Below, one piece after another: positions 825 through 13,762 of a DNA stretch of 50,904 nt. Both the position numbers and the translations under genes were made by a program. The stretch covers positions 1 to 50,904 of the forward strand of contig JAQIBG010000329.1 of NCBI GenBank assembly GCA_027859175.1. The letters are read 5' to 3'. The DNA is from Planctomycetota bacterium (lineage in GTDB: Bacteria; Planctomycetota; UBA11346). The first letter of the stretch is position 1. The number at the start of each line of letters is the position of its first letter. The notes beneath the pieces are model-generated. The model saw only the letters and a list, made by a program, of their open reading frames with translations. It did not search any database and had not been told where the DNA came from.

Positions 825-1583
825 CTACTGTCCGAGCGTAGCCGGAGGCATGCTGGTGCGCTGTTCGCTGTTGGCAGCGGCGGTGTGGCACTGTTGGCAA
901 TTGAGACGCTCCGGATGCGAGGTCTGCAGGCCGGGGCGTCCGGCCGGGCCGTGGCAGCTGCGGCAGTCTTGCCGCATCCAGGCTGGATGCGGCATCTGCG
1001 GCGGTGCGCCCAGGTTGGCGCGTGGGCCGCCACTGGGTTCGGGTTTGGTGACGGCGATTGAGGGCGGTGCCTCGCGCGTGCCGACAACGGCGCTGGGTGC
1101 AGCGGCAACGTGGCATTGCGTGCAATTATGGTAGGCCGGGTGGCTGATCCGCGACGCGCGACGCTCGCCAACAATGAGACCCTCGCCGTGACAGGCGAGG
1201 CAACTGGCTGCGCTGACTTGATCAATGCTGTGCGGGATGGTGGGCGGCGCGCCGGCAAAGGCGCGATTGCTGGCCCGGTCAGCGAGGGCGGCGTCGGTTT
1301 CGGCTTGGCTGGCCGGCTCCTTGCGCGTGTCGGCGCCAGGCCGCAGAGCCGCGAGGTCGCCACTGTTCCAGTTGGCATTGCGGCTCATGTCGACGTTGGT
1401 CATCTGCGTATAGGGAACCGCCTGCGGCACTGCCGACGGCGCCGACTTGGCCAAGTCAGCCCCGCCGCCATGCGAGACCACCGGTACGCTACCGCCGGTG
1501 CCGGCCAAATAGCCGATCAGGGCGATGCCGGCGATCGCCGCCAGGGCCACGTGCAGCGGCTTGCTGTCGGCGAGGGGGCTCAC
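825..1583 (-). CDS. napB: Periplasmic nitrate reductase cytochrome c subunit NapB, extended tetrahaem form
   Basis: Electron-transfer subunit that passes electrons to NapA in the periplasm. It has 252 residues, against about 150 in classical di-haem NapB. An uncleaved-looking N-terminal hydrophobic segment (about 11-29) suggests a membrane anchor. The family core lies at 111-158, with GAPPTIPHSID before the CLACH (128-132) and CTQCH (154-158) haem sites. A second, shorter copy of the same pattern follows at 192-233: GAPPQMPH, then CRSCH (207-211) and CQQCH (229-233). The protein therefore carries four haem c sites, apparently by internal duplication. The start overlaps the end of napA by 4 bp (ATGA), and a small unknown gene follows after one base. 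The napB identity is firm. Which of the four haems contacts NapA is unknown. Confidence 0.9.
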   Translation of the reverse strand: MSPLADSKPLHVALAAIAGIALIGYLAGTGGSVPVVSHGGGADLAKSAPSAVPQAVPYTQMTNVDMSRNANWNSGDLAALRPGADTRKEPASQAETDAALADRASNRAFAGAPPTIPHSIDQVSAASCLACHGEGLIVGERRASRISHPAYHNCTQCHVAAAPSAVVGTREAPPSIAVTKPEPSGGPRANLGAPPQMPHPAWMRQDCRSCHGPAGRPGLQTSHPERLNCQQCHTAAANSEQRTSMPPATLGQ

Positions 1584-3991
1584 GTGCGGGCTCCGGCGCG
1601 GCGTACGAAGCGAAGCTTAGCGGCACACTTCTTATAGTCGGGCTGTTTCGAGATCGGGCAGTACGCGTCGAGGGTGCACTTGTTGATCAGCAGCCGTTCG
1701 TCGAAGAAGGGCACAAAGATGCGTCCGGGAGGTGGCGCGCCACGGCCCTTGATCCAGGCCGGTAGTTCAATGCTGCCGCGCCGCGTATCGATGGCTACGA
1801 TGTCACCATTGCCGATGCCAAGTGACTTGGCGTCTTGCGGATTGACTTCCACGTAAGACGAGGGCATGGCGCGGCGCAGTTGTGGCACGCGCATGGTCAT
1901 TGAGCCGGTGTGCCAGTGTTCCAGCACGCGACCGGTGCACAGCCATAGCGGGTACGCGGCGTCGGGCTTCTCCGGCGGATCCTCATAGGGGTGGAACCAC
2001 ACCTGCGCCTTGCCGTCGCCGGTGGTGGAATGGTAAAATTCAATGCCAGCACCTTTGGTGACAAAGGGGTCATCAAATTCGGAGAAGCGGAACCTCGTTT
2101 CGCGCCAGGTGCCGTCGGCCTGCTCAAGCACCGGCCAGCGCAGGCCATGTGATTTGACGTACTCGTCGTAGGGCGCGAGGTTTTTGTGCTTCAAGGTGGT
2201 GAAGAGTCGGTACTCCTCGAACAGCTGCTTGTCGACGTTGACGTCGTAGTAGTGGTCCCAATCCCAGGCTGGCACTTCTTGGCCCTGTTCATTGTGGATC
2301 TCGAACAAGAATTTGCCGTCCTTGTCTTTCATCAGGCCGCGCTGGTACAGTTTGCGGGCCACAGCCAGCACCTGCCACACGTCGTCGCGCGCTTGACCCG
2401 GGGGGTCCACCATCTTGAACCACTGCTGGGTGCGGCGTTCGCTGTTGCCGAACATGCCGTTCTTCTCAACCCACATCGCTGAAGGCAGGATCAGATCGGC
2501 CAGCTTGGTGGTGGCGGTTGGGTACACGTCAGACACGATCAAGAATTTATCTTCCAGGCCTTCTTTGCGCTCAAACAGCTTAGGCAAATTGGGCAAGGTT
2601 TGGCCCGGGTTGGTGACTTGCACCCAGATCGTGCTAATATCGCCACCTTCGGCGGTGGGCGTGCAGAAGTGGTCCCACATCGCGATCGTATGGTAGCCAG
2701 GCTTGGGGCTGATGGTGCCGTGGGGCAGGTTCCAAATATCCTCGGATTGCTGACGATGCGGCTCTTTGGCCACTATGCGGCCGCCGGGCAAGGCGTGCGC
2801 CAGGGTGCCCACTTCGCGTGCGGTGCCGCAGGCCGAGGGCTGGCCGGTGAGGCTGGTGGGGGCGTCGCCGGGCTTGCCAAAGTGGCCGGAGAGGAGGTGC
2901 ACGCCGTGTACCAGGCAGTTGATCGCGGTGCCGCGTGTATGCTGGTTCATGCCCATGCACCACAGGCTGGTGATGCGCTTGTTGGGGTCAGCAAACAGCT
3001 TGGCGAGCATGCGGATGTTGTCGGCTGAGACGCCGGAAATTTCTTCAACCCGTTCGGGGGTGTATTCTTCGAGGTAGGTCTCGTATTCAGCAAAGGTGCA
3101 CGGGATGCCCTTGAGCGACTTCTTCTCGTGCTGCTCGCCCTCGTTGCGGCGGAAGTTGCAGTGCTTTTCAACGAAGGCCTTGTCGTAGCTGCCGCTCTTG
3201 ATCAGCAGGTGGCAGATGCCGTTGGCAATCGCCATGTCACTCTGCGGTTCGAACTCGAGGTAGTGATCGGCATGCTCGGTAGTGCGGGTCCGGCGGGTGC
3301 CGATGTCGATGATGGTGATTTTCTCGCCGCGGCTGCGGCGGTCGATCACGCGTGAGAACAGCACTGGGTGCATTTCGGCCGGGTTGTTACCCCAGGTGAT
3401 CAGCACGTCGCAGGCATCGAGGTCGTCATAGCAGCCGGCGGGCTCGTCAACGCCGTAGGTGCCGATGAAGCCGGTGACCGCTGAGGCCATGCACAGGCGC
3501 GCATTAGGGTCGATGTGGTTGTTGCTGAGGCCGCCTTTCATCAGTTTCTGGCAGATGTAGCCCTCGGGGATGGTCCACTGGCCGGAGCCGTAGATCGCGA
3601 AGGTCTTGGGCTGCGTTTGGATCTTGTCAGCAACAATGGTCAGCGCCTCGTCCCAGCTGATCGGCACATGCTTGCCGTCTTTTTTCAGCAGCGGGGTGGT
3701 GAGCCGGTCTGCGCCGTACAGCGCGAGGCCAACGTGGTAGCCCTTCACGCACAGCAGGCCCTTGTTGACCTCAGCCTCCACGGCGCCGGCAATGGCTTGC
3801 ACCTTGCCGTCTTTAACGCCCACCTTGACGTGACAGCCAGTGCCGCAGAAGCGACACGGGGCCTTATCCCAGGTTAGGCCGTCATCGGCGAGCCCGGCGG
3901 GCTGCGGATCGGCGGCTTGGGCGCGGTCGATGGTGAGCGCGGAGGCGGCCATCGCCATGGCACTGGTCTTGAGGAAATCGCGTCGACGCAT
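1580..3991 (-). CDS. napA: Periplasmic nitrate reductase catalytic subunit NapA
   Basis: Reduces nitrate to nitrite in the periplasm using a molybdenum bis-MGD cofactor and one [4Fe-4S] cluster. It has 803 residues, close to the family norm of about 830. A Tat signal (RRRDFLKTS) occupies the first 26 residues, cleaved after AQA. The cluster ligands are C46, C49, C53 and C81 (CRFCGTGC and later LLCVKGYH). The molybdenum ligand is C167 in RLCMASA. The C-terminal molydopterin dinucleotide binding part includes the GRVLEHWHTGSMTMR motif typical of Nap. An AGGAG ribosome site precedes the ATG. napD lies 51 bases upstream and napB overlaps the end by 4 bp, giving napD-napA-napB. The conserved HTGSMT motif and Tat signal favour Nap over assimilatory Nas. 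Confidence 0.97.
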   Translation of the reverse strand: MRRRDFLKTSAMAMAASALTIDRAQAADPQPAGLADDGLTWDKAPCRFCGTGCHVKVGVKDGKVQAIAGAVEAEVNKGLLCVKGYHVGLALYGADRLTTPLLKKDGKHVPISWDEALTIVADKIQTQPKTFAIYGSGQWTIPEGYICQKLMKGGLSNNHIDPNARLCMASAVTGFIGTYGVDEPAGCYDDLDACDVLITWGNNPAEMHPVLFSRVIDRRSRGEKITIIDIGTRRTRTTEHADHYLEFEPQSDMAIANGICHLLIKSGSYDKAFVEKHCNFRRNEGEQHEKKSLKGIPCTFAEYETYLEEYTPERVEEISGVSADNIRMLAKLFADPNKRITSLWCMGMNQHTRGTAINCLVHGVHLLSGHFGKPGDAPTSLTGQPSACGTAREVGTLAHALPGGRIVAKEPHRQQSEDIWNLPHGTISPKPGYHTIAMWDHFCTPTAEGGDISTIWVQVTNPGQTLPNLPKLFERKEGLEDKFLIVSDVYPTATTKLADLILPSAMWVEKNGMFGNSERRTQQWFKMVDPPGQARDDVWQVLAVARKLYQRGLMKDKDGKFLFEIHNEQGQEVPAWDWDHYYDVNVDKQLFEEYRLFTTLKHKNLAPYDEYVKSHGLRWPVLEQADGTWRETRFRFSEFDDPFVTKGAGIEFYHSTTGDGKAQVWFHPYEDPPEKPDAAYPLWLCTGRVLEHWHTGSMTMRVPQLRRAMPSSYVEVNPQDAKSLGIGNGDIVAIDTRRGSIELPAWIKGRGAPPPGRIFVPFFDERLLINKCTLDAYCPISKQPDYKKCAAKLRFVRRAGART

Positions 3992-4042: not shown

Positions 4043-4309
4043 CTAGCGACCCTCGCAGGGGTCTCCTTGATCTGGGTCAAGGTAGACCGCGACCAGGTCG
4101 ACATAGTCGATCATGCGATGGGACTGGAGTTCCCTGAAGGTGGCCTCGGCCGCTTCCTGGTCCAGGTCCTCGCTTACCACCGCTACCCGTGCGCCATCGG
4201 TCTCCCCGACGGTCAAGCGCGGGTCGGCCGACAGGAGGGCGCATAGCGCCGCGGGATCATGCCCTTGAGTCACTGTGACCACCAAGCTGCTGATGACCGT
4301 GTCATTCAT
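4043..4309 (-). CDS. napD: NapD, Tat-signal chaperone for NapA
   Basis: Small cytoplasmic chaperone (88 residues) that binds the NapA twin-arginine signal during cofactor insertion. The opening VISSLVVTV and the ferredoxin-like alternation of strands and helices match NapD. Residues LTVGETDGARVAVVSEDLDQ correspond to the family's middle hairpin, and the tail ends acidic. I chose the ATG at 4309 because the conserved family start lies directly after it; a GTG at 4318 would add three residues. It is the first gene of the leftward nap operon. Its 5' end overlaps, or sits within 20 bases of, the start of the divergent cytochrome gene, so the promoters must lie partly inside coding sequence. Confidence 0.85.
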   Translation of the reverse strand: MNDTVISSLVVTVTQGHDPAALCALLSADPRLTVGETDGARVAVVSEDLDQEAAEATFRELQSHRMIDYVDLVAVYLDPDQGDPCEGR

Positions 4310-4921
4310 GGGCGCCACCGTGCGTCTGTGTTCGGCCTCGTCAACGCGGTCTTGTGTGCTGCCTTGTTATCGCTCGCCGGCTGTAATGGGACCGGCCCGG
4401 CCCCGGTGCCCGGCCCCAACCCAGACGCGGCCGAGTATTCGGTGACAATCCAGGCCCCGCCGCCGGCTGCCGGCATTGCGACCGGTCTGCAAGATCACAG
4501 CGGGCAGGCGGTAACGGCCGCGTGCGCCAGTTGCCACAGCACCAAGCTGCCCGACACCAGCACCCGTCGGGGTGAAGATCTCGACCAGTTCCATCATGGT
4601 CTGCAAATGGCGCATGGTGATCGCAGCTGTCTGAGCTGTCATAACGCCGACGACTACAACAGCCTGCGCCTGGCCGACGGCACCTCGGTGGCCTTTGCCG
4701 AGAGCATGCAGCTGTGTGCGCAGTGCCACGGCCCGCAATTTCGTGACTACAAGCACGGCTCGCACGGCGGCATGACCGGCTACTGGGATCTGACCCGCGG
4801 TGCTCGCACCAGGAATCACTGTATGAGCTGTCACGACCCGCACGCGCCGGCCTTTCCAACTTTACGTCCCTTGCCCCCGCCGCCTGACGCGGTGCGCCAC
4901 GAGGAGAACTCCCATGAGTGA
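4259..4921 (+). CDS. Tetrahaem c-type cytochrome lipoprotein (NrfB-like electron carrier)
   Basis: Periplasmic, lipid-anchored multihaem cytochrome, 220 residues from the first ATG. The signal peptide ends in a lipobox (LLSLAGC, C42). Four haem sites follow: CASCH (89-93), CLSCH (124-128), CAQCH (153-157) and CMSCH (188-192), with several spare histidines as axial ligands. The tail is proline-rich. It leads the set cytochrome / four-cluster Fe-S protein / NrfD, the layout of NrfBCD-type quinol dehydrogenase modules, and probably passes electrons to NapB or NapA next door. The start is uncertain. The ATG at 4259 lies inside divergent napD; an in-frame GTG at 4328 would give a tidier lipoprotein signal without the overlap. 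Neither has a clear ribosome site. Confidence 0.85.
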   Translation: MPLSHCDHQAADDRVIHGRHRASVFGLVNAVLCAALLSLAGCNGTGPAPVPGPNPDAAEYSVTIQAPPPAAGIATGLQDHSGQAVTAACASCHSTKLPDTSTRRGEDLDQFHHGLQMAHGDRSCLSCHNADDYNSLRLADGTSVAFAESMQLCAQCHGPQFRDYKHGSHGGMTGYWDLTRGARTRNHCMSCHDPHAPAFPTLRPLPPPPDAVRHEENSHE

Positions 4922-5873
4922 GCAGGGATCCTGCGGATCTGGCTGCGGTTGCAGCGGCGATGGTGGTGGCGGCGGAGGCTTGAGCCGCCGCACGGTGCTC
5001 AAAGCCGCCGGCGCTACCTTAGGTGCAGCCGCCTTCGCCCACGCCGTGGCGCCGCTCACCGAATGGGCCGCCGACTTGTCGATGGATGAGTTCTTGCAGA
5101 AGCATTATCGGGAATTGACCCCCGATCAGCTCACGCAGGTGTTGGAGCGCATCGAAAACGACACCCGCGAACAGTATGGCCGCGAGGTCAACGTACGCGC
5201 GCTGCCGCCGCAGGAGGGGGTCAGCTTCGGTTATGCCCTCAATCTGTCGATCTGCGTGGGGTGCCGGCGCTGCGCCGAGGCCTGTCACGAAGAAAACAAC
5301 CACGACCGCGATAGCCACCAGAGCTATATCCGCGTGTTCGAGTTGTCGAAGGGATCGATCGACTTCGCCAAGGGTGATCCGAGTTACGACCACCCGGTGC
5401 CGCAAGACGATAAATATTACATGCCGGTGCAGTGCCAGCAGTGCGACAACCCGCCCTGCGTGTCGGTATGCCCGGTGGAAGCCACCTGGAAAGAGCCCGA
5501 CGGCATCGTGGTGGTAGACTACAACTGGTGCATCGGCTGCCGGTATTGCGAAGCCGCCTGCCCCTATCATGCGCGGCGCTTCAACTGGAAGGCGCCGGAG
5601 ATTCCGGCCGAAGACATCAACCCCGATCAGGGCTACCTGTCTAACCGCGTCCGCCAGGCCGGTGTGATGGAGAAGTGTACCTTCTGCCTGCACCGCACCC
5701 GCGATGGCCGTATGCCGGCCTGTCTTGAGGCGTGCCCAACCGGCGCCCGGGTATTCGGCAACATGCTCGATCCCGATTCCGAAATCCGCTGGGTCTTGGC
5801 CAACAAGCGGGTGTTTGTGCTCAAAGAAGAGCTCGGCACCCGGCCCCGGTTCTTCTACTTCTTCGACGAGTGA
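4914..5873 (+). CDS. Four-cluster [4Fe-4S] ferredoxin subunit with Tat signal (NrfC/HybA-like)
   Basis: Periplasmic Fe-S electron-transfer subunit of a membrane quinol oxidoreductase, 319 residues. The Tat motif SRRTVLKAAG (24-33) is preceded by an unusual cysteine/glycine leader (C7, C11, C13, then a run of six glycines). Four cluster-binding cysteine groups follow: CVGCRRCAEAC, CQQCDNPPCVSVC, CIGCRYCEAAC, and CTFCLHRT paired with ACLEAC, the standard pattern of NrfC, HybA, PsrB and DmsB. It overlaps the cytochrome gene by 8 bp, and GAGGAG at 4901-4906 supports the start. The NrfD gene starts 6 bases after the stop. With the neighbours it should form a quinol-to-cytochrome module. The direction of flow is inferred from the adjacent nap operon. 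Confidence 0.9.
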   Translation: MSEQGSCGSGCGCSGDGGGGGGLSRRTVLKAAGATLGAAAFAHAVAPLTEWAADLSMDEFLQKHYRELTPDQLTQVLERIENDTREQYGREVNVRALPPQEGVSFGYALNLSICVGCRRCAEACHEENNHDRDSHQSYIRVFELSKGSIDFAKGDPSYDHPVPQDDKYYMPVQCQQCDNPPCVSVCPVEATWKEPDGIVVVDYNWCIGCRYCEAACPYHARRFNWKAPEIPAEDINPDQGYLSNRVRQAGVMEKCTFCLHRTRDGRMPACLEACPTGARVFGNMLDPDSEIRWVLANKRVFVLKEELGTRPRFFYFFDE

Positions 5874-5879
5874 CCCACG

Positions 5880-7529
5880 ATGCCTGACGCTCCCGCTCCA
5901 GCTCCCGCACCGTCTGTGGCCCCAAGCGCCTTGCGCTTCCGGCCGCTGGGTTTACTGCGACAGATTGTGTCGTGGGCAACCGATGGTGGTCCTCTGTTCT
6001 ACGTGTGGATGACCGTGCTCACCTGCATCGCTCTGGTGGGCGTGCACGCCTGGACCAATCAGGTGGTGCAGGGCATGGCCGTCACCGGTATGAGTGACCA
6101 CGTGTCGTGGGGCTTATACATCTCCCACTTCACCTTCTTCGTCGGCGTTGCCGCGGCGGCAGTGATGATGGTGATTCCGGCCTATCTGTACAAAGACCAC
6201 GAAATGCACGACGCGGTTATTGTCGGAGAAATGCTGGCGATTGCGGCGATCTCGGTGTGTCTGTTGTCGGTCATGGTTGACATTGGTCGGCCCGACCGCT
6301 TCTGGCACATGATCCCTGGCTTGGGTAAATTCAACTGGCCGATTTCGATGCTCACCTGGGACGTGATCGTGCTCAACGGTTACCTGGTGATCAACGTGTT
6401 CATCGTTGGCTACCTGTTGTGGTGCCGGTGGTCGGGGCGCGAGCCGGTCAAAAAGCTCTATCTGCCCTTCGTGTTCCTGTCGATCATCTGGGCTGTGTCG
6501 ATTCACACCGTCACCGCGTTCTTGTACAGCGGTCTGGGTGGGCGTCCGTTCTGGAATACCGCGCTATTAGCGCCGCGCTTCTTGGCCTCGGCCTTTGTGG
6601 CGGGTCCGGCATTTATTATTTGCGCCTTGATGGTGCTGCAACGTCTCGGGTCCTACCCCTTCGGTGACAAGCCGATCTCGTTCTTGGTTGGCTTGATTCG
6701 CGTTACTGCGCTGATCAACCTGTTCATGCTCGGCGCCGAATGCTTTACCGTGCTCTATACGGGTTCGTCGCACGCTGCGAGCTTACGCTACATGATGTTT
6801 GGGCTGCACGGTGCTCACGGCTTGGTGCCGTGGTTCTGGAGCGCGGTGGTGATGAACGTGGTGGCGGCAGGGCTGTTCTTATGGCCGGGTCTGCTGCGGC
6901 ACCGGCGGCTGTTGGTAACCGCCTGCGTGATGACCTTCATCGGTATCTGGATCGAGAAGGGCATGGGCTTGATCGTGCCGGGCTTCATTCCGTCGACGCT
7001 GCATGAGGTGGTGGAGTACGTGCCGAGCCTCAACGAATGGAAGCTCACCGCCGGCATCACCGCTGTTGGACTAATCATCTACACTTTGCTGCTCAAGATT
7101 GCCTTGCCGATTCTCTCAGGCTGGACCCCCGGCATGGCGGTGGGTATCGCCAGCGTGGATGACCAACACCGCGAACTCTTCGTGCGTCTTAACGAATTGG
7201 TGTCAGCCCTGCGCCACGGCACCGGCGGCGCCGAACTCGACACGGTGATCGGCTTCCTTGATGATTACGTACGCCTGCACTTCACTGAAGAAGAGGCTCT
7301 GATGGCCGATGCCGGCTATCCGGCCTGCGAGGCCCACAAGAAGCTCCACGCCGGTTTCGTAGACGAACTGGGCGTGGTCAAGCAGCGTCTGTCCGATCCG
7401 GGCTGTGATCGCGAAGCGCTCAGCGCCGAGCTACACCTGCACTTGCGCGACTGGCTGGTGCGCCACATCATCAAGGCTGACCGGGCCTTTGGCACATTTG
7501 CTGCCAGCAAGGGCCTGACCGTTCATTGA
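5880..7529 (+). CDS. NrfD/PsrC-type quinol-binding membrane subunit fused to a C-terminal bacteriohemerythrin domain
   Basis: Integral membrane subunit that would exchange electrons between the quinone pool and the Fe-S partner; 549 residues. Residues about 35-410 are a multi-helix NrfD/HybB-type domain, with the conserved EKGMGLIVPGFIPSTLHE stretch near its end. After a last helix the protein continues into a four-helix hemerythrin domain (about 413-549) opening with GWTPG. All seven di-iron ligands expected from the family are present: H430, H467, E471, H486, H490, H529 and D534. There is no stop or start between the two parts, and the base composition does not change at the joint. The hemerythrin may bind O2 or NO near the quinol site, as sensor or scavenger; this is inference. 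The gene follows the Fe-S gene by 6 bp. Confidence 0.92.
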   Translation: MPDAPAPAPAPSVAPSALRFRPLGLLRQIVSWATDGGPLFYVWMTVLTCIALVGVHAWTNQVVQGMAVTGMSDHVSWGLYISHFTFFVGVAAAAVMMVIPAYLYKDHEMHDAVIVGEMLAIAAISVCLLSVMVDIGRPDRFWHMIPGLGKFNWPISMLTWDVIVLNGYLVINVFIVGYLLWCRWSGREPVKKLYLPFVFLSIIWAVSIHTVTAFLYSGLGGRPFWNTALLAPRFLASAFVAGPAFIICALMVLQRLGSYPFGDKPISFLVGLIRVTALINLFMLGAECFTVLYTGSSHAASLRYMMFGLHGAHGLVPWFWSAVVMNVVAAGLFLWPGLLRHRRLLVTACVMTFIGIWIEKGMGLIVPGFIPSTLHEVVEYVPSLNEWKLTAGITAVGLIIYTLLLKIALPILSGWTPGMAVGIASVDDQHRELFVRLNELVSALRHGTGGAELDTVIGFLDDYVRLHFTEEEALMADAGYPACEAHKKLHAGFVDELGVVKQRLSDPGCDREALSAELHLHLRDWLVRHIIKADRAFGTFAASKGLTVH

Positions 7530-7653: not shown

Positions 7654-8574
7654 ATGTACCTGCGTGTCTCGCTGTTGGAGGCCTGCAATTTGCGCTGCCG
7701 GTATTGTTTACCGGCTGATGCTAAATTCAGCCCACCAGCCACAACTCCTGACGAACTGCTGCGCCTGACTCGGCTCGTGACCGAAGCCGCCGGCGTTCAT
7801 AAAATCCGCATTACCGGTGGCGAGCCAACGCTGTGCCCTGAGTTGCTTGAGCACGTTTCGCAGGCCGCCGCCTTGGCGCCTATCGTGGGTATGACCTCCA
7901 ACGGCATCCGACTCGCGCCCTTGATCGAGCCGCTGCAGCGCGCCGGCCTTAACCGTCTCAACATCAGTCTCGACGCCCCCGATGAAGCTGGCTTCGAACA
8001 GGTGACCCGGCGCACCGGGCATAGCAAAGTGCTCACGGCCATCCGCGCTGCCATGGCGGCCGGTTTTGATCCGATCAAGCTCAACTGCGTGGCGACCGCA
8101 GATACCCGCTGTGCTGCGATGCTCGATTTGGCCCGACGCGAGGGGGTGCACCTGCGCTTCATCGAACTGATGGCGATTGGTGTCTCGCGCGAGGTCCACG
8201 CCAAGCGCTTCCTGAGCTCTGAGCAAATTCGCGCGCGTCTGTTTTTGGCCGGTGAACAGTTGGCGGTGGCCGCCGATCGCGATGAGCCCACCTCGCGCGT
8301 GTGGACCGTGCACGGCACCGACCCCAGTGACACCACCCTCGGCTTTATCACCACGGTCAGCAATCCCTTCTGCGGCACCTGCGATCGCATCCGCCTGACC
8401 AGCGCCGGGCGCTTGCATACCTGTCTGTTCGATCAAGCCGGTACCGACCTCCTCTCACCCCTGCGCCTAGCCGGTGACGAAGCCGTGCGCGAAGCCGTGC
8501 GCCACGCAGTAGCCGGAAAGGCCCCGCCGGTCGAATTCGTGCGCAGCGCCGCCATGGCCGCGATCGGAGGCTGA
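7654..8574 (+). CDS. moaA: GTP 3',8-cyclase MoaA (molybdenum cofactor synthesis)
   Basis: Radical SAM enzyme that, with MoaC, turns GTP into cyclic pyranopterin monophosphate, the first step of molybdenum cofactor synthesis; cytoplasmic, 306 residues. The N-terminal radical SAM cluster is CNLRCRYC (C11, C15, C18), followed by the ITGGEPTL glycine motif. The second, substrate-binding cluster is CGTCDRIRLT plus a downstream HTC. The protein ends in GG, as MoaA does for activity. It is somewhat shorter than the usual 325-340 residues, with no obvious missing motif. A strong GAGGAAAGG site precedes the ATG. moaD follows after two bases. The location beside napA, a molybdoenzyme, fits a local cofactor supply. 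Confidence 0.95.
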   Translation: MYLRVSLLEACNLRCRYCLPADAKFSPPATTPDELLRLTRLVTEAAGVHKIRITGGEPTLCPELLEHVSQAAALAPIVGMTSNGIRLAPLIEPLQRAGLNRLNISLDAPDEAGFEQVTRRTGHSKVLTAIRAAMAAGFDPIKLNCVATADTRCAAMLDLARREGVHLRFIELMAIGVSREVHAKRFLSSEQIRARLFLAGEQLAVAADRDEPTSRVWTVHGTDPSDTTLGFITTVSNPFCGTCDRIRLTSAGRLHTCLFDQAGTDLLSPLRLAGDEAVREAVRHAVAGKAPPVEFVRSAAMAAIGG

Positions 8575-10474: not shown

Positions 10475-10634
10475 CTAGCAGGCTGTTGAAATACGGCCTG
10501 CGGGGGGTTGAAAGGGGGGTCGCAGGCCCTCCTGGGTAAAGAGCCGCCTCACGAAAACCTTGGAAGATGACGACTGCAGGTCGCCCAAGGTTTTCTTGAG
10601 GCTAGCAGGCTGCTGACTTTCAGCAGCCTGCTAG
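10475..10634. mobile_element. 160-bp palindromic MITE-like element
   Basis: The ends are 17-bp terminal inverted repeats with one mismatch: CTAGCAGGCTGTTGAAA at 10475-10491, and the reverse complement of CTAGCAGGCTGCTGAAA at 10618-10634. The CTAG at each tip could be a target duplication. Inside are three hairpins: 10495-10502 with 10521-10528 (8 bp), 10547-10563 with 10585-10601 (17 positions, two mismatched), and 10602-10616 with 10620-10634 (15 bp, perfect). No gene fits inside, so it would be mobilised by a transposase elsewhere. The right end overlaps the last codon of the xylosidase gene and supplies its TAG stop. Confidence 0.65.
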
Positions 10635-12169
10635 GTGGCTTCGTGCGGGGTATATTCACACCAGGCAAAACGGGCCTGGTTGCTGCTCGTGGCGCCATTG
10701 GCGCTGGCGTAGAGTCCGAAGTACACGCCGGTGAAACCGCCGGCCAGTTCGGTGGCGTGGTGGCTTGTCTCGGCCACGCCGAGTTCGTGCATAGCGCTGG
10801 TGGTGGTGTCGCCGTAGCTGAATCGGTACAGGTGCTTGTCGGCATCGATGCGTAGGCGAATCGGCCCCTCGGGCAAGCGCTCGCGGGCTGTTTCGGTGAC
10901 CAAAGAGCCGACGTGGCGTCGCAGAATCAGGTCGCGGCCGGTGGTGCTACGAACAATCACCATCACGGTGTGATAATTTTCATTCATCAGCACGCTGAGG
11001 CCGGCTTGCTCGTCTTCCTCAGGATCAAAGTTGATTTCGGTTTCGATGATGCATGCGAAGTGCTGCTGGCGTCGACCGACCCAGGCGACTTGGTCGATGC
11101 TGGCCAATGTTGCCGGGAGACAGCGTAGGCTGAGGGCGCCAGAGGGAGTCGACAAAGACCAGCTGTGCGCGGCTGGATTGCGGCGGAAATTCCAGTCCAG
11201 GCCCAGGCTTGGTTGCGCGAAGTCGTCATGCTGTTTGCGGTCGGCGGCGACTGTGCGGTGGCGTGGCCCTGCACGTTCGACCTGCATGCTGGTGGTGATG
11301 ACCTGGCCCTGGTTGACGACCGGCCAGTCGTCGACCCATTCAACCGGCGCAATAAAGGTTTCACGGCCGAGATGGTGCATGAACGGATACTGGCTGGGCC
11401 GAACGCCCAGGAACACAATCCACCATTGTCCGTGGGCATCTTCAATGAGATCGCCGTGCCCAGTGGACTGAATGTCCGGCGAGCCTTTGGCGGCATGGGT
11501 CAGGATGGGGTTGTGCGGACACGATTCAAACGGCCCGTAGGGGCTGCGGCTACGGCCAATGGTGATCATGTGGGTGTATTCGGTGCCGCCCTCTGCGGCT
11601 ATGATGTAGTACCAGTCGCCGATGTGGTAGAGGTGGGGCGCTTCCAGTGCGCAGCCACCTGTGCCGGTCCAGATGCGACGGGCCGTGGGGTGGGTGAGCG
11701 TGCCGGTGGCGATGTCGATTTCGTTTTGAAACAGGCCGCTACCGGTGTGGCCTTCGCAGGCGTTTGACGTGAAATACACCGTGCCGTCGTCATCAAATAG
11801 CAGCGACGGGTCGATTCCGGCTTGGTCAACAAGGATGGGGTCAGACCACGGGCCGGCTGGGTTGTCGGCGTGAACGAAGAAATTTTTGATACCCGAGGTG
11901 TCGGTCGTCACCATGTAGAACCGGCCTTGGTGGTGGCGAATGGTGGGCGCGTAGATGCCCTTCGAGCTCGGCGCGCCGATCAGGTTGAGCTGTTCGGGCC
12001 GCGTCAGGCAGTGACCGATCAGGTGCCACTGGATCAGGTCGGTGCTGTGGAAGACTGGGACACCAGGGAAGAACTCGAAGCTGCTGGTGACGAGGTAGTA
12101 GTCGTCGCCGACACGGCACATGCTGGGGTCGGGGTGGAAGCCGGGAATGATCGGATTGGGGTAGTGCAT
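10631..12169 (-). CDS. Glycoside hydrolase family 43, beta-xylosidase-type
   Basis: Probably removes xylose (or arabinose) from the non-reducing end of xylo-oligosaccharides. It has 512 residues and no signal peptide, so it is cytoplasmic. The N-terminal five-bladed propeller starts NPIIPGFHPDPS with the catalytic base D14; D120 (GIDPSLL) is the pKa-tuning acid and E176 (ALEAPHLY) the proton donor. The C-terminal third (about 320-512) is the beta-sandwich seen in XynB-like enzymes, and the overall length fits that subgroup. The stop codon TAG lies in the terminal repeat of the element at 10475-10634, so the last few residues may have been changed by its insertion. The LacI-type regulator and large hydrolase nearby suggest a sugar-use locus. 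Confidence 0.88.
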   Translation of the reverse strand: MHYPNPIIPGFHPDPSMCRVGDDYYLVTSSFEFFPGVPVFHSTDLIQWHLIGHCLTRPEQLNLIGAPSSKGIYAPTIRHHQGRFYMVTTDTSGIKNFFVHADNPAGPWSDPILVDQAGIDPSLLFDDDGTVYFTSNACEGHTGSGLFQNEIDIATGTLTHPTARRIWTGTGGCALEAPHLYHIGDWYYIIAAEGGTEYTHMITIGRSRSPYGPFESCPHNPILTHAAKGSPDIQSTGHGDLIEDAHGQWWIVFLGVRPSQYPFMHHLGRETFIAPVEWVDDWPVVNQGQVITTSMQVERAGPRHRTVAADRKQHDDFAQPSLGLDWNFRRNPAAHSWSLSTPSGALSLRCLPATLASIDQVAWVGRRQQHFACIIETEINFDPEEDEQAGLSVLMNENYHTVMVIVRSTTGRDLILRRHVGSLVTETARERLPEGPIRLRIDADKHLYRFSYGDTTTSAMHELGVAETSHHATELAGGFTGVYFGLYASANGATSSNQARFAWCEYTPHEAT

Positions 12170-12564: not shown

Positions 12565-12693
12565 GTGGGGTCTCCGCGGGCGGAGTGTCCGTGGCTACCG
12601 GGGCAACGCAAGTTGTGGAACGGTGGGCTAGGTACCCGGTCTGGTGGGCGTAATCGTGGGCTGCGGTCAACGCCTGGGGCTTGGTGCCGTATC

Positions 12694-12713
12694 TTGTCAT
12701 AGCGCTATGACAA
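12694..12713 (+). promoter_or_regulatory. Perfect 20-bp operator palindrome over the lacI-type start codon
   Basis: TTGTCATAGCGCTATGACAA is an exact inverted repeat. Its centre is GCGC, and the central CpG fits LacI-family operators. The ATG of the regulator gene (12707) lies inside the right arm, so the bound protein would block its own transcription or initiation. Autorepression is inference from position. I saw no second copy in front of the xylosidase gene. Confidence 0.7.
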
Positions 12714-13762
12714 AATCTCGAACAGCAACCCAATCGCAGCCTGAAGCAGGCTCCAAGGCATCGGCCCGCGCAGTGGCCGAACACACCGGCCTGAGTCTGC
12801 CCACCGTGTGGCAGATTCTCTCTGGCCGCGATGCGCGCTACGCCGAGGCCACCAAGCAGCGCGTTCTGGCGGCGGCGGCGGAACTTGGTTTCCGGCCCAA
12901 TCAGGCGGCCAAGTCACTGAGTGAAGGCCGCTTCGGTGCCGTGGCGCTGCTCATGGGCACCCTCGGCTATCGCAGTGAAGTGCCGGCTGGCATGCTGGGG
13001 GGGATTCAAGACGCGCTCGATAAGGATGATCGTCATTTGGTGTTCTCGCGCATTGATGATGAGCGGATTCGGGCCGGTACGCGCTTGCCGAAGATCCTGC
13101 GCCAGCAGCTCTGCGATGGCATTTTGGTCAACTTTACCATGCACGTTCCTGGCGGTCTTGAGCCCTTGCTCAAGCGCCTCGGCATCCCGGCCGTGTGGCT
13201 CAACTGCAAGCGCGCGCGCAATGCGGTGCATCCCGATGACTACGCTGCTGGTGCCAGTGCTGCCGACGCGCTGCTGGCCCAGGGGCATCGCCATGTGGTG
13301 GTGGCAACGAGTCATGAAACGCCGCACTATAGTTGGCATGATCGTCGTGACGGGGCCTGCGAAGCGCTGCGTGCTGGTTCGGCTCGGGTTACGGTCATTG
13401 ACCATCAAGACGGGCATCGTGCCTGGTGTGCGCGCCTGCATGAATTGCTGCGTTCGGACCAACGGCCGACCGCAATTATCGGCTACCGCCCGATTGCCGT
13501 TCTGCCGGCGCTATCGCTTGCAGCAGAATTGGGCTTATCGGTGCCAGACGATCTCAGTCTGGTCACCTTTGATGACCAAGCGCCGACCGGCTATGACCGG
13601 CTCATCAGCTGCCTGCCGATCCCGGCTGCCGCCGAAGGGCGTGCTGCTGTTGCTATGCTTGATCGTTGTATTGCCACGCCAGGACATCGTTGCGCGCGCG
13701 TGGCGGTGCCCTTCGGACCCATAGTTGGCGACACCATCGCCCCGCCAAGGAGTCAGTCATGA
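12707..13762 (+). CDS. LacI-family transcriptional regulator
   Basis: Sugar-responsive DNA-binding protein of 351 residues. After an 18-residue polar leader comes the LacI helix-turn-helix (ARAVAEHTGLSLPTVWQIL) and hinge helix (FRPNQAAKSLSEG), then a periplasmic-binding-protein-like effector domain to the end. I chose the ATG at 12707 because the residues upstream of it in frame are unrelated to the family and the operator palindrome covers this ATG. The stop overlaps the start of the next gene by 4 bp (ATGA), so the regulator and the large hydrolase are translationally coupled. It probably controls that hydrolase and itself. Control of the divergent small membrane protein and xylosidase is plausible. 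Confidence 0.92.
   Translation: MTKSRTATQSQPEAGSKASARAVAEHTGLSLPTVWQILSGRDARYAEATKQRVLAAAAELGFRPNQAAKSLSEGRFGAVALLMGTLGYRSEVPAGMLGGIQDALDKDDRHLVFSRIDDERIRAGTRLPKILRQQLCDGILVNFTMHVPGGLEPLLKRLGIPAVWLNCKRARNAVHPDDYAAGASAADALLAQGHRHVVVATSHETPHYSWHDRRDGACEALRAGSARVTVIDHQDGHRAWCARLHELLRSDQRPTAIIGYRPIAVLPALSLAAELGLSVPDDLSLVTFDDQAPTGYDRLISCLPIPAAAEGRAAVAMLDRCIATPGHRCARVAVPFGPIVGDTIAPPRSQS

Follow-up and report, generated by a model that had tools for sequence, protein, structure and literature searches.

The window, by which we mean the whole stretch of 50,904 nucleotides analyzed here, encodes a protein in which a quinol subunit of the NrfD/DsrP type continues without interruption into a bacteriohemerythrin domain with all seven di-iron ligands. 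Both domains are of known kinds, but we found no prior description of an NrfD-hemerythrin fusion in the open-licence literature searched, to which the full list of 56 architectures of a 2016 hemerythrin survey (PMC4919030) does not belong. Within that literature, this agrees with the first-pass annotation, which did not know the fusion as a described family. We favor the reading, with a probability of roughly 0.4, that the hemerythrin is a cytoplasmic sensor of O2 or redox state modulating the quinol subunit of a NapA system.

One frame, two domains

The fusion gene is open on the plus strand from an ATG at position 5880 to a stop codon at 7527-7529, and its parts are as follows:

5880..7529, plus strand: NrfD (DsrP-type)-bacteriohemerythrin fusion protein, 549 aa (single frame, profile matches, AlphaFold2, Foldseek)
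5880..7115, plus strand: NrfD/DsrP-type quinol subunit, residues 1-412 (DsrP profile, hydropathy, ActC-like model)
7116..7526, plus strand: bacteriohemerythrin domain, residues 413-549, with ligands H430, H467, E471, H486, H490, H529, and D534 (profile, ligands, Foldseek)
7116..7160, plus strand: junction, at which the hemerythrin N-terminal loop (413-427) is fused straight to the last helix (384-412) (AlphaFold2)

Pfam profiles matched NrfD at residues 68-359 (127 bits; cut-off, 25.8) and Hemerythrin at residues 422-534 (50 bits; cut-off, 25.3), and NCBIfam models matched the DsrP equivalog at 31-412 (409 bits; cut-off, 350) and bacteriohemerythrin at 415-540 (101 bits; cut-off, 84). The E-values of the domain matches were about 1e-122 and 1e-29. 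An NrfD domain followed by hemerythrin in one unbroken frame, as proposed earlier, is thus confirmed at 5880-7529 with both profiles above their cut-offs. The membrane domain had also been called NrfD/PsrC-type; its role as a quinol subunit stands, but it is of the 10-helix DsrP type instead of the 8-helix NrfD/PsrC type. Ten transmembrane helices were predicted from hydropathy, and this prediction, the AlphaFold2 model (a monomer; mean pLDDT, 84.5), and a Foldseek match of the membrane part to ActC (TM-score of 0.74 by target length) agree with the DsrP/NrfD-like layout, in which a further two helices accompany two four-helix bundles.

Of the 92 positions conserved among unfused relatives, 90 are retained in the membrane part. 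Six residues published as quinone-site and ion-path residues of Desulfovibrio vulgaris DsrP1 (Tyr52, Asp106, Ser124, Asp129, Glu254, and Lys329) are conserved as Y80, D134, S156, D161, E287, and K360, respectively, when matched by near-constant numbering offsets.

The fused hemerythrin carries the H-HxxxE-HxxxH-HxxxxD ligand set, and its pocket contains L526 and I530, which are aligned with L114 of McHr and I119 of DcrH; inspection of the sequences by eye showed that both equivalents are also kept in the sister-genus copies described below. On its sequence, we place the domain, with its canonical ligands, among the bacteriohemerythrins that bind O2 and not with the RIC type, and its binding of O2 is a well-supported prediction. 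The nearest solved relatives are DcrH-Hr (Foldseek score of 0.79 for the C-terminal part) and the bacteriohemerythrin entry 4xpx, which we take to be the Methylococcus protein.

The D. vulgaris chemoreceptor DcrH shares the seven ligands, the pocket isoleucine, and the cytoplasmic C-terminal placement in a membrane protein (PMC9388753). However, DcrH and other bacteriohemerythrin sensors have a signaling output domain where the present protein has a respiratory quinol subunit. In the P1B-5-ATPase, too, a membrane transport protein bears a di-iron four-helix domain at its cytoplasmic face, but the ligand set of that domain is noncanonical and the membrane part is unrelated (PMC9388753). As a separate observation, a further genome of the same family as that of the window (G001) encodes a chemotaxis receptor that ends in a bacteriohemerythrin domain, the common sensor architecture (L118 1640-3811, minus strand).

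Distribution, origin, and conservation of the fusion

Scanning the genome contigs left 80 loci, 3 of which encode the fusion and 77 an unfused NrfD. Whole-genome searches added a fourth sister locus, giving three loci in genome G018 and one in G021, two genomes from a different genus of the same family as the window's genome (G000). The proteins of these four loci are 68 to 73% identical to the window fusion, have the same junction, and are always encoded in the same operon. Of 1,263 genomes searched in four phyla, 182 have close NrfD relatives (73, 17, 86, and 6 by phylum, at E-value limits of 1e-70, 1e-90, 1e-60, and 1e-60), and the fusion was found only in G000, G018, and G021, a small group within the Planctomycetota. 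The count proposed earlier thus came to three genomes, five loci, and one operon type in a survey of close NrfD relatives; the genomes searched are a sample, and further carriers are possible.

The genome assembly is fragmented (495 contigs), and a sequencing or assembly error might have joined two genes. This is refuted by the homologues, in which the identical junction recurs at four loci of two genomes besides that of the window, and we regard such an artifact as extremely improbable. In particular, the hidden stop near 7110-7130 that would have argued against a working fusion is absent, the junction being open in the window and at the four separately assembled loci.

The five fused proteins group together as a single clade in the NrfD tree (support, 100/99), and the unfused protein of G004, a genome of the same family, is sister to that clade (100/98). 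A second tree, built from 31 hemerythrin domains, likewise has the fused hemerythrins in one clade (98/98). Because both parts are monophyletic, a single origin is the simplest reading of the trees, and multiple independent fusions were rejected. A split-gene ancestor was sought as well, but a hemerythrin gene beside an unfused nrfD was present in the fetched flanks of none of the 77 loci. G018 carries the whole nap/nrfD-hemerythrin operon three times (L113, L114, and L115), with substantial synonymous divergence; the copies may be true paralogues or the product of a mixed bin.

All seven ligands, numbered correctly in the first-pass annotation, are identical in the five independent copies, and 53 of the 126 hemerythrin columns are invariant; the chance of seven invariant ligands out of seven is about 0.002 if the kinship of the copies is ignored. 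Loss of a ligand in close homologues, which would also have argued against a working fusion, was therefore not seen in any of the five. The dN/dS ratio was 0.03 to 0.36 for the hemerythrin part and 0.02 to 0.16 for the NrfD part, the between-genera ratios being rough since dS is near or above 1, and these values indicate purifying selection on the hemerythrin part. Between genera, the hemerythrin diverges faster (49 to 56% identity) than the NrfD part (78 to 81%).

These data bear on whether the fusion matters at all, since a hemerythrin gene joined to nrfD could have become a near-neutral passenger or an independent, membrane-anchored hemerythrin. The single origin, the restriction to one family, and the faster divergence of the hemerythrin would fit such a fusion. 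However, it has been retained in two genera and in three operon copies of one genome with all ligands complete and dN/dS far below 1, which makes neutrality very unlikely.

The nap operon and its accompanying genes

The neighbors of the fusion gene in the window are as follows:

825..1583, minus strand: multiheme c-type cytochrome with 4 CxxCH, downstream of napA (cytB)
1580..3991, minus strand: catalytic subunit of a NapA-type periplasmic nitrate reductase, divergent (NapA models, Tat signal)
4259..4921, plus strand: multiheme c-type cytochrome with 4 CxxCH and a lipoprotein-like N terminus (cytA)
4914..5873, plus strand: DsrO-like Fe-S electron-transfer subunit with a Tat-type signal
7654..8574, plus strand: MoaA-like molybdenum cofactor biosynthesis protein, downstream of the fusion gene

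The nitrate reductase reported earlier beside the fusion gene was recovered as a NapA-type gene scoring slightly below the cut-offs of two NapA models (894 bits against 904 and 859 bits against 931); its product has a Tat signal and the Fe4S4 and Mo-binding domains. The gene order cytB-napA/cytA-dsrO-nrfD is found with small variations, and without hemerythrin, in annotated unfused loci of Planctomycetota, Verrucomicrobiota, and others. Given this common order, we take the host system to be a NapA module of wide occurrence whose quinol dehydrogenase is of the DsrO/DsrP type.

The fusion protein resembles the 10-helix DsrP of DsrMKJOP in scoring above the DsrP equivalog cut-off and in having a DsrO-like partner. 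In contrast to DsrP, which is partnered by DsrMK, it has a C-terminal hemerythrin and is encoded with NapA and two multiheme cytochromes, dsrMK and dsrJ not being in the operon. As judged from its gene content, the system works like DsrOP yet is no Dsr complex. On the other side of the fusion gene, a GH43 glycosidase (10631-12169, minus strand) and a LacI-type regulator (12644-13762, plus strand) form a locus for carbohydrate use next to the nap operon. The window contains no tRNA.

The sister-genus operons and some related loci hold the following additional genes:

L113 6027-6446, L114 8762-9181, L115 9468-9887, and L116 6193-6612, minus strand: 137-aa HHE-domain protein, weakly RIC/YtfE-like
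L171 2799-3635, L172 2409-3326, and L173 2093-3004, plus strand: HHE-bacteriohemerythrin two-domain protein
L003 9581-9982 (plus strand), L011 9265-9681, and L013 9320-9730: Rrf2-family regulator directly after nrfD in part of the nap operons, both fused and unfused

The separate HHE gene lies between dsrO and the fusion gene at all four sister-genus loci and is absent from this position in the window operon. The two-domain gene, whose second domain has canonical ligands, lies beyond the position of a NapGH-like gene at three of the four sister loci, the fourth contig ending earlier; the window contig starts just past cytB, so that the corresponding position falls outside it. A derivation of the fused hemerythrin from these nearby two-domain proteins is unsupported, as they branch elsewhere in the hemerythrin tree, whose deep forks are weak. 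The HHE-rich cluster of G018 also contains a COX1-superfamily protein (L174 9776-12040, minus strand), possibly a quinol NO reductase, for which the curated models matched no named family.

The partner enzyme being a nitrate reductase, the di-iron site might bind or sense NO derived from the nitrite made by NapA and act in nitrosative stress. The weakly RIC/YtfE-like and the two-domain proteins of the sister-genus loci, the Rrf2-family regulator, and the presence of NrfA in the genomes would all be in line with this. However, the fused domain is a bacteriohemerythrin with canonical ligands rather than of the RIC type, and the window operon has neither the HHE gene between dsrO and nrfD nor the Rrf2 regulator. 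We therefore consider a function in NO binding or sensing distinctly unlikely.

Membrane topology and a possible sensor role

The quinone site of NrfD-like structures is on the periplasmic side, and both termini of ActC are on the N-side, ten helices being likewise predicted for DsrP (PMC8076601). In the fusion protein, the charge bias around the helices was 13 positive on the presumed cytoplasmic side versus 7 on the opposite one. Because of the ten helices and this positive-inside bias, the C-terminal hemerythrin is most likely in the cytoplasm, on the opposite membrane face from the quinol site and NapA, and the structure prediction proposed earlier for locating the iron site, read together with the hydropathy, favors the same side. 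A periplasmic hemerythrin facing the quinol site was rejected on this topology, including the published structures (PMC8076601).

The first-pass annotation had suggested that the di-iron site senses or scavenges O2 or NO where electrons enter. Sensing or binding is still probable, but the proposed place of action does not fit a periplasmic quinone site and a cytoplasmic hemerythrin. Indeed, direct scavenging at the electron-entry point is unlikely because the hemerythrin is predicted to be separated by the membrane from both NapA and the quinol site. To our knowledge, NrfD-like subunits have no redox cofactor bridging the membrane, and quinol is therefore also unlikely to reduce the di-iron site directly. 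Electrons would pass from quinol through the NrfD/DsrP subunit to the DsrO-like Fe-S protein, the multiheme cytochromes, and NapA, all on the periplasmic side.

A hemerythrin tethered at the inner membrane face could simply bind O2 there and shield O2-labile enzymes, exerting no control over NrfD. In Campylobacter jejuni, HerA and HerB guard Fe-S enzymes against O2 damage (PMC4257069). Hemerythrin/HHE matches numbered 32 in G018, 17 in G021, and 5 in G000, compared to 0 in the unfused close relative G004, and all fusion genomes have heme-copper oxidase-type genes, so that exposure to O2 is probable. However, one di-iron site per respiratory complex offers a small capacity, a soluble protein would suffice, and the Fe-S and Mo centers of the complex itself are across the membrane from the hemerythrin. 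Buffering of O2 thus seems fairly unlikely.

The cytoplasmic sensor that we favor would work through the junction. In the AlphaFold2 model, the last membrane helix (384-412) leads through a low-confidence loop (pLDDT below 50 at 416-426) into a four-helix bundle that spans residues 428-543. The N-terminal loop of DcrH is ordered in the met form and disordered in the deoxy form and has been proposed to relay the signal (PMC9388753). Similarly, binding of O2 or oxidation of the di-iron site would order the loop of the fused hemerythrin, and because this loop continues straight from the last transmembrane helix, the ordering could reach the cytoplasmic face of NrfD. An altered face would in turn change quinol turnover or coupled ion movement and make nitrate respiration responsive to O2. 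We infer both this allosteric coupling and the direction of its effect.

Several observations support the sensor reading: the ligands and pocket residues are kept, the domain is under purifying selection, and one fusion has been retained in two genera. In addition, the closest solved hemerythrin belongs to the sensor DcrH, signaling proteins are the most frequent of the described hemerythrin fusions (PMC4919030), and the modeled low-confidence loop sits between the last helix and the bundle. On the other hand, about 180 genomes have close NrfD relatives without a hemerythrin domain, the faster divergence of the hemerythrin means that no tight co-evolved interface is apparent, and the loop, disordered in the model, may be a mere flexible tether. 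A stronger form of the sensor reading, in which O2 directly gates the quinol:nitrate complex through its built-in cytoplasmic di-iron site, is somewhat unlikely.

Switching between O2 and nitrate respiration in bacteria is best known at the level of transcription. A di-iron O2 sensor inside the quinol subunit would represent a direct switch at the protein level. If direct gating were true, an NrfD-like energy-transducing complex would possess an intrinsic O2 switch, by which anaerobic respiration could be shut down or tuned on the protein itself. The hemerythrin domain is small, separable, and visible by spectroscopy. A sensor in the quinol subunit would also make it possible to test how the cytoplasmic face is coupled to quinol turnover in NrfD-like proteins.
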